Origin: Paludibacteraceae bacterium
GTDB lineage: Bacteria > Bacteroidota > Bacteroidia > Bacteroidales > Paludibacteraceae
Direction of reading: 5' to 3'
Length of the DNA: 64,000 nucleotides
Assembly (NCBI GenBank): GCA_017478225.1
Contig: JAFVDX010000002.1
Coordinates: forward strand, 1 to 64,000
In this document: in pieces, positions 19,536 to 43,249 of the stretch
How positions within the stretch are numbered: the stretch's first letter is position 1
Layout: each line of letters opens with the position of its first letter
Notes under the pieces: model-generated
Seen by the model: only the letters and a program-made list of their open reading frames with translations
Database searches by the model: none
Told to the model about the DNA's origin: nothing
Translations under genes and position numbers: made by a program

Positions 19536-19581
19536 CAACTACACTTTCCTATATTATGGATTTTTCTTTATCTACTAATTG
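19536..19581. repeat. Partial copy of the 42.45-kb repeat element
   Basis: Bases 19560-19581 are identical over 22 bases to 42497-42518 (core CTTTATCTACTAATTG). The sequence just upstream (CTTTCCTATAT) resembles the TTTCCCATAT of the element's left arm. Seen directly by comparison of the two loci. Confidence 0.6.
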
Positions 19582-19634: not shown

Positions 19635-19731
19635 GGGTTAATGGGGAAGGGTTAATGGTTAATGGTTAACGTTTAATGGTTAATGGTTAATGGTTAATGG
19701 TTAAGGGTTAAAGGTTAAAGGTTAAAGGGGG
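19635..19731. repeat. TTAATGG heptanucleotide tandem repeat
   Basis: Seven copies of TTAATGG with interspersed variants (TTAACG, TTAAGGG, TTAAAGG) fill most of this 97-base stretch in the 473-base gap between the RNase G gene and the glycan operon. The rest of the gap holds the palindrome, the repeat copy and the promoter listed separately; no gene is seen. Confidence 0.9.
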
Positions 19732-24251: not shown

Positions 24252-24309
24252 TTTGCAGTTAATTACTAAAATTTTCTATATCTGATAATCATCCGAATTA
24301 TCTATTGGG

Positions 24310-24372
24310 GATGTTCATGAATTGAACTGATTAAACGGAAAACTTATTATTTTCGTCCACAATTACCCACAA
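24310..24372. repeat. Degenerate intergenic repeat related to 1.3 kb and 42.5 kb
   Basis: Read on the minus strand this holds AATTGTGGGTAATTGTGGAC followed by GAAAATAATAAG and a TTTAATCAGTTCAATT stretch, resembling the direct repeats at 1319-1415 (inverted) and the ATCCAAAATTACCC region at 42567-42590. Similarity is partial. Confidence 0.4.
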
Positions 24373-24419
24373 TTATCTTATGGTTTATTTTATGCTTACT
24401 TTTTATTAAGTACATTTAC

Positions 24420-40386: not shown

Positions 40387-41577
40387 TTACATTTGTTTTA
40401 TTCTGTTAATAGCCTCTTGTGTTGTTTCGTGAGAGGCGAAAGCAGAAAGCCGCACATATCCTTCACCGCATTTACCAAATCCCACTCCTGGTGCGCATAA
40501 AATCTGACACTTATTTAGCAAGAGGTCAAAGAAAGTCCATGAGTCTAAATTATCGGGTGTGCGTAACCACAGATATGGCGAATTGACTCCTCCATACACT
40601 TGATAACCCATTGAGCGCAAACTATCAAGAAAAAGCGAAGCGTTATGTTTGTAATAGTTGATATTGTGCATTATGCCGGCCTTTCCTTGTGGTGTATATG
40701 TGGCTTGTGCTCCTCTTTGTGAGATATATGATGTGCCATTATATTTGGTACATTGTCTTCGCTGCCACATTTGGTTAAGTCCTGTGGCTTTAGGAACGAT
40801 GGTGTAGCCGCATCTTACGGAAGTGAAGCCGGCGGTTTTTGAATATGAGCGGACTTCAATAGCGCATTGATCTGCTCCCCAGATTTCATAAATACTATGC
40901 GGGACATCGGGGTCTTGAATAAATATCTCGTAAGCAGAATCAAAAATAATGATACTATGATTTTGAATTGCGAAATTGACCCAATCTTGTAATTGGCTGC
41001 GTGAGAGTGTAGTGCCAGTAGGGTTGTTAGGAAAACAAAGGTAGATAATGTCCGGTTTAGATTTAGGAAGTGGGGGTACAAAATTATTTTCAGCAGTGCA
41101 AGGCAGATATTCAATTTCACTCCATCTGCCATTTATCCATTCGCCTGCTCTGCCTGCGATTACATTGGTGTCAATATATGCAGGATAAACGGGGTCGAGA
41201 ACTGCTACACGGTTGTTTGTAGAGAAGAGTTCACTTAGGTTGCCTAAGTCGCTACCAGCACCATCGGAGATAAAGACTTCGTCGATGTCAAGATTGATGC
41301 CTAAGGGTTTGTAGTCATTGTCAATAACGGCATGTCGAAGGAATCTGCTTCCTTGTTCCAAACCATATCCGCGGAAAGTTTCTATATGTGCTAATTCTTC
41401 TACCGCCTGGTGCATAGCATCAACTATGGTTCGAGGTAAGGGTAGGGTGACATCTCCCACTCCTAACTTAATGAGCCGTGCATCAGGATGAGCCTGCTCA
41501 AATGTTTTTTTTCGATTATTGATTTCTGTGAAAAGATAATAATCGGGCAGTTTATTGAAATTAGTGTTGATATTCAT
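40387..41577 (-). CDS. dapL: LL-diaminopimelate aminotransferase
   Basis: A 396-residue PLP aminotransferase making LL-DAP directly from tetrahydrodipicolinate for peptidoglycan and lysine. N-terminus has NFNKLPDYYLF and INNRKKTFEQAHP, typical of DapL, then KLGVGDVTLPLP, SDGAGSDLGNL, FPNNPTGTTL and the Schiff-base lysine in VRSYSKTAGFTSVRCGY. It overlaps dapF by 4 bases (ATGA), which supports the pathway assignment. Confidence 0.94.
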   Translation of the reverse strand: MNINTNFNKLPDYYLFTEINNRKKTFEQAHPDARLIKLGVGDVTLPLPRTIVDAMHQAVEELAHIETFRGYGLEQGSRFLRHAVIDNDYKPLGINLDIDEVFISDGAGSDLGNLSELFSTNNRVAVLDPVYPAYIDTNVIAGRAGEWINGRWSEIEYLPCTAENNFVPPLPKSKPDIIYLCFPNNPTGTTLSRSQLQDWVNFAIQNHSIIIFDSAYEIFIQDPDVPHSIYEIWGADQCAIEVRSYSKTAGFTSVRCGYTIVPKATGLNQMWQRRQCTKYNGTSYISQRGAQATYTPQGKAGIMHNINYYKHNASLFLDSLRSMGYQVYGGVNSPYLWLRTPDNLDSWTFFDLLLNKCQILCAPGVGFGKCGEGYVRLSAFASHETTQEAINRIKQM

Positions 41578-42362
41578 ATTGTTATATTTCCTGTAAATAC
41601 TTCTTTTGCGGGACCTGTCATAAGTATTTCGCCTTGTGGAGTGATATCAATAATTAGTGTTCCTCCCTTGAGGTGAATATTCATTGGTGGGATAGCGAGT
41701 TTTTTCTTAAATGCCGCAATAGCCACAGCACATGCGCCTGTGCCGCATGCCTGTGTTTCACCGGTGCCTCGCTCCCACACCAAGACTTTGATATCCTTAT
41801 TATTTTGCACATTTGCTATTTCAACATTTACTTTTTCTGAAAAGCATGGTAAATTTTCTATGGTCGGTCCTAATTGGTGCAGATTGATATTGTCGAGATT
41901 ATCCGTGAAGATAACAGCATGTGGGTTGCCGATATTGATACAATTGAGAATATGATTTTCAAAGGATATTTCCATTCCAAAGATAGGCTTGCCCATATTG
42001 ACGGTAATTGTTTCTACATCATCGCTGTTGAGGTGAAGTTGTAGTTGCTTGATTCCGGCGAGAGTCTCAAGCGTAAGAGTCGTCTTATTGACGATGCCAT
42101 GTTCGTAAGCATATTTACCTACACAGCGGGCTGCATTGCCGCACATTTGTGCTTCAGAACCATCTGCATTGAACATACGCATACGAATATCTGCTTTGTC
42201 AGAAGGCAAGATAAGCACTAAACCATCGGAGCCGATACCATAGTGACGATTGCTTATTTGCCTTGCAAGGTCGGAAGGGGAAGATATTTGTTGCCGGAAA
42301 CAATCAATATATACATAATCGTTTCCTAAACCTTGCATTTTTATGAATGGGATAGATTTCAT
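41574..42362 (-). CDS. dapF: Diaminopimelate epimerase
   Basis: A 262-residue cofactor-free epimerase converting LL- to meso-DAP. Both catalytic cysteines are present: QMCGNAARC and TQACGTGACAVA. KMQGLGNDYVYID at the N-terminus is the family start. A frame from 42386 overlaps the promoter box at 42384-42391, so the Met at 42362 is used. The stop overlaps dapL by 4 bases, giving a two-gene lysine/peptidoglycan operon. Confidence 0.94.
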   Translation of the reverse strand: MKSIPFIKMQGLGNDYVYIDCFRQQISSPSDLARQISNRHYGIGSDGLVLILPSDKADIRMRMFNADGSEAQMCGNAARCVGKYAYEHGIVNKTTLTLETLAGIKQLQLHLNSDDVETITVNMGKPIFGMEISFENHILNCINIGNPHAVIFTDNLDNINLHQLGPTIENLPCFSEKVNVEIANVQNNKDIKVLVWERGTGETQACGTGACAVAIAAFKKKLAIPPMNIHLKGGTLIIDITPQGEILMTGPAKEVFTGNITI

Positions 42363-42383
42363 GCTTCTTGTTGTTTTTGCTGT

Positions 42384-42391
42384 CAAAAATA
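42384..42391 (-). promoter_or_regulatory. -7 element for dapF-dapL
   Basis: TATTTTTG on the minus strand, 22 bases before the ATG at 42362. No clear -33 box at the usual spacing. Confidence 0.45.
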
Positions 42392-42452
42392 CGAAGAATT
42401 ATCCTCAAAATAACACAAAATTTATTATATGCTTATTTAAGTGTGGCTGTTT

Positions 42453-42642
42453 AATAAGTTAGTAAAGTTTCCCATATCAGAAAATCAATGAATTGTATTT
42501 TTCTTTATCTACTAATTGAACGAAATAGACGAAAAACTTCGTTTTTCTTGATTATTAGGTTGTCAAAAATTATCCAAAATTACCCAAAATTACCCAAAAA
42601 TAATTTTATTCTCTCTTATGTGGGAAACTTTAGTAAGTTATT
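42453..42642. mobile_element. 190-bp MITE-like element with terminal inverted repeats
   Basis: Left arm 42453-42476 (starts AATAAGTTAGTAAAG) and right arm 42619-42642 (ends TTTAGTAAGTTATT) are inverted repeats matching at 21 of 24 positions. The interior is AT-rich and non-coding; it has a GAAAAAC-TTC-GTTTTTC hairpin (about 42532-42548), a triple CCAAAATTA run (42567-42590), and a 22-base sequence shared with 19560-19581. No obvious target-site duplication. It occupies most of the 419-base gap between dapF and the DUF2147 gene; the remainder holds only promoters. Confidence 0.55.
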
Positions 42643-42748
42643 ATTACTTAAGCATAGATTTTGCAAGTGAGGAGATTTGATGTTGTAACAGCGACAAAAT
42701 TACAACAACATAAACAAATACACAAGAGGTATGGGAGAATAGAAAATG

Positions 42749-42780
42749 GTTGCGTATATGGACTGAAAGTATTACTTTTG
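42749..42780 (+). promoter_or_regulatory. Promoter for the DUF2147 gene
   Basis: GTTG (42749-42752), 20-base spacer, TACTTTTG (42773-42780), 25 bases before the ATG. Confidence 0.55.
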
Positions 42781-42805
42781 CAAGTGGAATATAATTATAT
42801 ACAAC

Positions 42806-43249
42806 ATGAAAAAGTGCTTATTTTTTTGTTTAGTTATGCTTGCATGTTGCAATATGAGTGCACAGGTGAGTAAGATTGTGGGTGATTGGTACACGGTGGA
42901 TGACAGGACAGGTGAGAGTTATAGTATCATTCATATTTTCAAGGCAACCAATGGCAAATACTATGGAAAGATACAAAAGATGTTGGTAAGTGATGGTATA
43001 GATAAATGTGTCAAATGTAAAGATGCAGACAAAGACAAGCCATACGAGGGGTTGATTATCATACGAGATATGGTGGATAAAGATGGAGAGTTGGTAGGCG
43101 GTAATGTGCTTGATCCAGAGACGGGGAAATTTTATTACGGGAAGATTTATCTGAAGAATGGTAATTTAGTGCTTAGAGGTTCACTTGATAGGGCGGGTAT
43201 TTTAGGTCGCTCTCAAACATGGGTGAAGAGCGTGAATAGTCTTGAATAG
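42806..43249 (+). CDS. DUF2147-family exported protein
   Basis: A 147-residue secreted protein: signal peptide MKKCLFFCLVMLACCNMSAQ, followed by the DUF2147 pattern IVGDWYTVDDRTGESYSIIHIF, CVKCKDADKDKPYEGLIIIRDM (CxxC plus the conserved KPYEGL.I), GGNVLDPETGKFYYGKIYL and LRGSLDRAGILGRSQTW. The family is predicted to form a small beta-barrel of unknown function. It is monocistronic, with its own promoter and a strong terminator behind it. Confidence 0.87.
   Translation: MKKCLFFCLVMLACCNMSAQVSKIVGDWYTVDDRTGESYSIIHIFKATNGKYYGKIQKMLVSDGIDKCVKCKDADKDKPYEGLIIIRDMVDKDGELVGGNVLDPETGKFYYGKIYLKNGNLVLRGSLDRAGILGRSQTWVKSVNSLE

Follow-up and report, generated by a model that had tools for sequence, protein, structure and literature searches.

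Prokaryotic MITEs, which are non-autonomous miniature transposable elements, measure about 50–600 bp according to the excerpted text of PMC6382973. The nearest published parallel in layout to the family reported here is BrickBuilt from Porphyromonas gingivalis, for which the excerpted account (PMC4596501) gives 19 copies in strain ATCC 33277, always intergenic, with a minisatellite lying between a leader and a tail. Like BrickBuilt as presented there, our family is non-coding and multi-copy, has inverted-repeat ends and an internal tandem minisatellite, is narrow in its host range and carries no transposase remnant. The two differ, however, in their units (23 bp in BrickBuilt, 10 bp and 49 bp here), in their ends (GAGACCTTTGCA-like, GAGACC-type and near ISPg1/ISPg9 of the IS5 family in BrickBuilt, CTAAASTTTCCCACAT here) and in their duplications, which vary by copy in BrickBuilt (CT, GAAA or a run of A, in 3/4 copies) and are 7–8 bp here; moreover, BrickBuilt has known IS elements that share its ends, whilst none was found here (all as compared with the excerpts of PMC4596501). 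Membership of BrickBuilt itself was considered and rejected: the 23-bp unit with its leader and tail and the GAGACC-type ends given in these excerpts (PMC4596501) are both missing here. MITEPgRS/MITE464 of P. gingivalis likewise contain internal tandem repeats (41 bp), although with other ends and another unit (PMC4596501, in excerpt). MITEAba12 from Acinetobacter (111–114 bp) is similarly small, with AT-rich targets, duplications of fixed length and dispersed copies, but its duplications are 9 bp, its ends are common to the coresident ISAba12 and the excerpts of PMC6382973 describe no minisatellite for it. Our family displays the structural features of MITEs set out in the excerpts of PMC6382973 and PMC10969869, namely size, AT-richness, inverted ends, target duplication and dispersed copies; a description of this particular family was not found amongst the titles and starts of abstracts listed, and a text search for the end sequence returned no paper.

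The copy from which our analysis started lies in a window of 64,000 nucleotides (positions 1 to 64,000 of contig JAFVDX010000002.1 from the Paludibacteraceae bacterium assembly GCA_017478225.1). The initial annotation of this window had described a 190-bp element with 24-bp terminal inverted repeats, enclosing a non-coding, AT-rich interior with a hairpin, and had suggested that it was either a non-autonomous miniature transposon or an element of the hairpin-RNA kind. We consider it very likely that these 190 bases represent a member of a non-coding MITE family that is scattered through the genome and presumably mobilised in trans. The inverted arms (42453–42476 and 42619–42642) agree at 21/24 positions, the same count as given originally, and when extended they form an inverted repeat of 30 nt that is 87% complementary and encloses a spacer of 132 nt; no other inverted repeat of at least 12 nt was reported in 42440–42660. 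Whilst the arms are thus real, the outer limits required correction: with boundaries set from 25 aligned copies and the flanks of 28 copies, the MITE proper comprises 172 bp (42462–42633), its consensus reading on the minus strand with the A end to the right and the B end to the left, and the outermost bases of the arms belong to a target site duplication, TAAGTTA, present on the plus strand at 42455–42461 (left copy) and 42634–42640 (right copy). As this duplication is nearly palindromic, the outer arm bases resemble a further stretch of inverted repeat. The terminal inverted repeats themselves occupy 42462–42482 (B end, plus strand; its first base is G, where most copies have C) and 42613–42633 (A end, CTAAAGTTTCCCACATAAGAG, minus strand).

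Between these ends the description of the interior held: the MITE has a G+C content of 26% compared to 39.6% for the whole window, and contains the palindrome GAAAAACTTCGTTTTTC at 42531–42547 (plus strand) and, at 42566–42599 (plus strand), 3.4 copies of the 10-bp minisatellite unit AAAATTACCC as identified by Tandem Repeats Finder. A mechanically called ORF of 60 aa spans the window copy; across the 25 aligned copies, however, the longest open frame can be as short as 29 or as long as 63 codons, and copy lengths differ by non-multiples of three. The MITE lacks coding capacity for a transposase and is in effect non-coding. Its neighbours both read away from it: dapF (diaminopimelate epimerase, Pfam PF01678) on the left at 41574–42344, minus strand, and a DUF2147 protein (PF09917) on the right at 42806–43249, plus strand; no intrinsic terminator was detected in 42340–42860. 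The 22-base block of 19560–19581 that had been noted as a repeat of the interior is indeed present again at 42497–42518. Since a terminal repeat with 2 mismatches precedes this block, 19538–19581 (plus strand) reads as a truncated MITE copy, retaining the B end and the common 22-base block identified by BLAST. A further stretch at 24265–24390 (plus strand) is probably a decayed copy, with a B end carrying 3 mismatches, a degenerate interior and CCCACAATTA units; its right limit was set by eye and it is absent from the BLAST matches in the organism's own genome. Some 55 bp behind the truncated copy, at 19636–19725 of the window, lies a 7-bp tandem repeat, GGTTAAT, in 12.9 copies.

In order to describe the family we use Cn:position for the coordinates on contig n of the organism's own genome (G000; 2.19 Mb, 46 contigs). 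The genome-wide BLAST search for which the initial annotation had called reveals a multi-copy family: amongst the best 40 of 67 candidates there are at least 52 matches to the MITE with an E value of 1e-3 or better, which when merged within 200 bp correspond to at least 35 places rather than a single copy. A 17-base end pattern allowing up to 3 mismatches was found 59 times in G000, as against 7 times for the reversed control pattern. In an end matrix scan many of the ends form inverted pairs that delimit units of 104 to 332 bp, the remainder being single or part of tandem or broken copies. The family ends in CTAAASTTTCCCACAT, with slightly different A (ACTAAACTTTCCCACATAAGAG) and B (ACTAAAGTTTCCCATATCAGAT) ends, has terminal inverted repeats of 17–22 bp and consists of units mostly 160–200 bp long, with the 25 aligned copies spanning 158–202 bp.

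MITE copies are flanked by 7–8 bp duplications of AT-rich targets. This was examined with 28 two-ended copies from three species (20 from G000, 5 from G019 and 3 from G023, one of the latter belonging to a second subfamily), taking the element as CTAAA...TTTAG and leaving aside tandem clusters and one-ended copies. Identity between left and right flanks peaks at a length of 7, at 0.704 compared to 0.522 when the right flanks were re-dealt (z 7.3), and is also raised at length 8 (z 3.3), whereas z stays at or below 2.2 for every other length between 4 and 12; the mean best-duplication score was 5.57 versus 1.01 (sd 0.42) for re-dealt flanks, none of 1000 rounds reaching a value as high. In 15/28 copies the two flanks share an exact repeat of 7 bp or longer, with no exact 7-bp duplication in the other 13. 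By our count, 12 of the 15 exact duplications have T as first and A as last base and 8 fit TWA-N(1-2)-TWA, although two of the 15 (G019, contig C125 and contig C70 at 9030) sit in tandem repeats and are uninformative, since such repeats would mimic a duplication. The terminal T and A could alternatively be end bases of the MITE, with a duplication of 5–6 bp; against this, the repeats in both flanks end in T at C8:40099 and C13:53379, which favours a duplication of 7–8 bp.

The initial annotation had also proposed a search for empty sites in sister strains, and here one orthologous junction could be compared. In the own genome, copy C5:98752-98962 lies between fabF (beta-ketoacyl synthase) and rnc (ribonuclease III), both assigned by Pfam, with fabF ending ...AATAACTAA immediately before the MITE. 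The same gene pair is without a MITE in 5/5 relatives that were aligned (G013, G019, G023, G024 and G064; 7 searched), the distance between the matches on either side being ~198–239 bp shorter than in the own genome. This comparison covers one locus between species (64–68% DNA identity over fabF, with the spacer itself unalignable) rather than between strains, and because the relatives are other species the insertion is to be read as lineage-specific and not necessarily as recent. For the window copy, dapF and the DUF2147 gene occur on the same contig in no relative among the matches listed (best 3 candidates per genome), at C29:119318, next to RNase P, a tblastn search with the gene upstream of the junction found nothing in 10 relative stretches, and at the other junctions examined, that of the window copy included, synteny between relatives is too low. 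Two observations of a different kind were also made. Two stretches of locus L152 (90–1890 and 9083–10001), separated by 7 kb in the own genome, match neighbouring places of a single contig in a number of relatives (G013, G064, G024, G010 and G003 amongst them); the segment between them ends at MITE copy C29:122834, and a MITE-linked rearrangement is possible. The RNase P RNA, which measures 305 nt in the own genome, measures 474 nt in G019 (L301, 1511–1984) and 520 nt in G023 (L299, 1287–1806), with long inserts in both relatives; that of G019 lies in a variable helix and is a (TTAATGC)n minisatellite.

We analysed placement relative to genes for the 24 of the 35 places that could be delimited, leaving the remainder out and using 246 genes called roughly by a simple hexamer script. 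Of these MITEs, 19 lie between co-directional genes, 3 between divergent and 2 between convergent ones, with three called genes overlapping MITE edges by 4–16 nt. None of the 24 sits within a called gene, compared to 513 of 883 TWA-N(1-2)-TWA sites. Amongst the 21 MITEs that neighbour the 3′ end of a gene, 11 sit no more than 10 nt from it, as against 42/284 non-coding TWA-N(1-2)-TWA sites of the same DNA (binomial p 6e-5), a control motif that fits only about half of the exact duplications and was derived from those same duplications; for a looser T-N5-A motif the figure was 121/1405. In this bias towards gene 3′ ends, target preference is inseparable from selection against insertion elsewhere. 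It is conceivable, though we think it improbable, that the transposase, or selection on its products, favours stop codons, by which a hairpin-plus-minisatellite would enter the 3′ UTR or operon spacer and the family would be a DDE-type counterpart of REP elements; the stop codon would be kept upon insertion because the AT-rich target often holds TAA or TTA.

Internally, the copies differ in their tandem units. A 49-bp unit is found inside some MITE copies only, beside the 10-bp minisatellite and a short palindrome, and C5:55039-55370 holds 3.9 copies of the 49-bp unit along with 4.4 copies of the 10-bp unit. At C5:58504-59148 (L158) three whole MITEs and one partial MITE follow each other head to tail, scored as 2.7 copies of a 207-bp unit, with a single TAAATTA separating the whole MITEs. 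Such internal growth would most simply be explained if copies, once inserted, underwent slippage or unequal recombination. The minisatellite unit contains TANNTTTG, which we take to be the Bacteroides −7 box, in 18/25 copies on one strand, compared to a shuffle mean of 4.4; a promoter reading of the minisatellite was nevertheless set aside, the full −33/−7 arrangement being present in 1/25 copies. In a genome without MITE ends (G091, contig C34, 15701–18717) a AAAATTACCC-type 10-bp repeat occurs several times on one contig, as if this repeat were spreading or arising independently of the ends.

The distribution of the family is narrow. When up to 2 mismatches are allowed, a 21-base end is present in 8/101 genus genomes and is numerous in three only: G000 (45), G019 (18) and G023 (10). 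One end each was found in G003, G011, G012, G017 and G024; since the reversed control yields 8 matches over the 101 genomes (0 in G000, G019 and G023), these single-end genomes are at chance level as a class, although the G012 end (C110:12164), which is exact and coincides with BLAST matches to both element halves, probably represents a genuine copy. In G024 the MITE has four BLAST matches, all of them partial. The whole MITE used as query matches 11 of 41 genomes (own and relatives), beyond those with ends mostly by short pieces, and at the level of the order, searched with the best two candidates per genome, 16/295 genomes match, the own genome included and the other 15 by 21–41-base pieces only. 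No match was found in plasmid and phage collections, nor for exact ends in viral contigs. The second subfamily in G023, with two copies (L332, 7482–7650; L336, 1073–1239), combines the ends of the main family with a different, unrelated interior, suggesting that it is the ends which are recognised. Judged by their mean identity (92.6% over 6 copies, best pair 98.8%), the copies in G019 look younger than those of G000 (78.5% over 16 copies, best pair 97.0%). Four G019 contigs (C27, C50, C70 and C175) start or stop within a MITE match.

A transposase with the same terminal repeats, which the initial annotation had suggested seeking, was not found with four Pfam families in the three incomplete genomes G000, G019 and G023. 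PF01609 gave 3 matches in G000, 0 in G019 and 2 in G023; none of these five loci carries a 16-base MITE end with fewer than 4 mismatches. At four of them (L289, L290, L291 and L293; the L290 gene was placed from its PF01609 match) the transposase gene is bordered by inverted repeats that do not resemble the MITE ends, and the fifth, L292, is a partial match at a contig end that was scanned for MITE ends only. PF12762 (IS1595), PF01610 (ISL3) and PF13612, presumably of IS982 type, had no matches in these three genomes.

The family might instead consist of a structured RNA (a 3′-UTR hairpin, an attenuator or a small RNA) that is kept for its stem and hairpin and has spread by duplication. Folding of the window copy gives a z value of −5.28 on the plus strand, with 0/200 shuffles as good, pairing within the internal hairpin reaches 96% across 25 copies, and the proximity to gene 3′ ends in 11/21 cases would also suit such an RNA; the other strand, however, folds weakly, with a z value of −2.03, and Rfam gives no match at the window copy. 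As inverted repeats fold anyway, covariation is the relevant test: over the 25 copies 87.0% of the named pairs are standard, compared to 86.9% with partners shuffled (217/500 shuffles as high), and the covariation score was reached by 191/500 shuffles. The slid controls pair less (32–59%), as would be seen with any inverted repeat. End position 7 is C or G independently on each side and unpaired in 13/23 copies. With pairing but no covariation, recognition of the ends as DNA by a protein is the better explanation, and the hairpin-RNA option of the initial annotation is not supported; a structured RNA also leaves the target duplications unexplained, and we regard it as very unlikely.

In their palindromic content and their position at gene 3′ ends the copies bring to mind the REP elements of enterobacteria, and the family could be a REP/BIME-like element for which a Y1 enzyme (TnpA-REP), or some other single-strand mechanism, takes the place of a DDE transposase. 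REP and BIME elements adjoin stop codons, as copies often do here, but they are much shorter palindromes that rely on a Y1 enzyme and are not known to create target duplications; neither target duplications nor paired terminal inverted repeats are expected from a Y1 or other single-strand route, and here both 7–8 bp target duplications and matched terminal inverted repeats are observed. In size, too, the MITE copies at mostly 160–200 bp stand apart from REPs, given as 20–40 bp in the abstract of PMC3733652, and such an origin appears highly improbable. Least credible of all is a passive repeat, in which a low-complexity, AT-rich minisatellite would arise repeatedly between genes and so mimic a family: the 10-bp unit alone does match in many genus genomes without MITE ends, and short pieces match across the order, but the 17–22 bp ends are non-repetitive, occur in inverted pairs and are found 45, 18 and 10 times in G000, G019 and G023, where the reversed control gives 0.

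The proposal in the initial annotation of a non-autonomous miniature element is thus borne out by the occurrence at no fewer than 35 places, the target duplications, the empty fabF–rnc site in all five relatives aligned and the abundance in only 3/101 genus genomes. For this mobile element we propose that the transposase would be supplied in trans, probably by the DDE enzyme of an insertion sequence whose ends match those of the MITE, which may have been lost, may be unassembled or may belong to a family outside the four Pfam families tried. This enzyme would cut at the CTAAA ends and insert the MITE into AT-rich DNA, after which the internal 10-bp and 49-bp units may gain and lose copies via slippage or recombination, and whole MITEs may form tandem duplicates by way of the target duplication; copies within genes would be lost to selection, such that the survivors are intergenic.

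The family is a new one of a known kind of mobile DNA, genuine and fairly ordinary, and by itself it leaves the understanding of bacterial mobile DNA unchanged. What it contributes is a MITE family whose boundaries and target duplications have been resolved, and it reveals that the MITE-plus-minisatellite layout of P. gingivalis recurs with unrelated ends. It may also account for assembly breaks in such genomes. Finally, it provides a measurable bias of MITEs to gene 3′ ends, and if insertion at stop codons were indeed favoured, the variable number of internal units could tune expression of the next gene.
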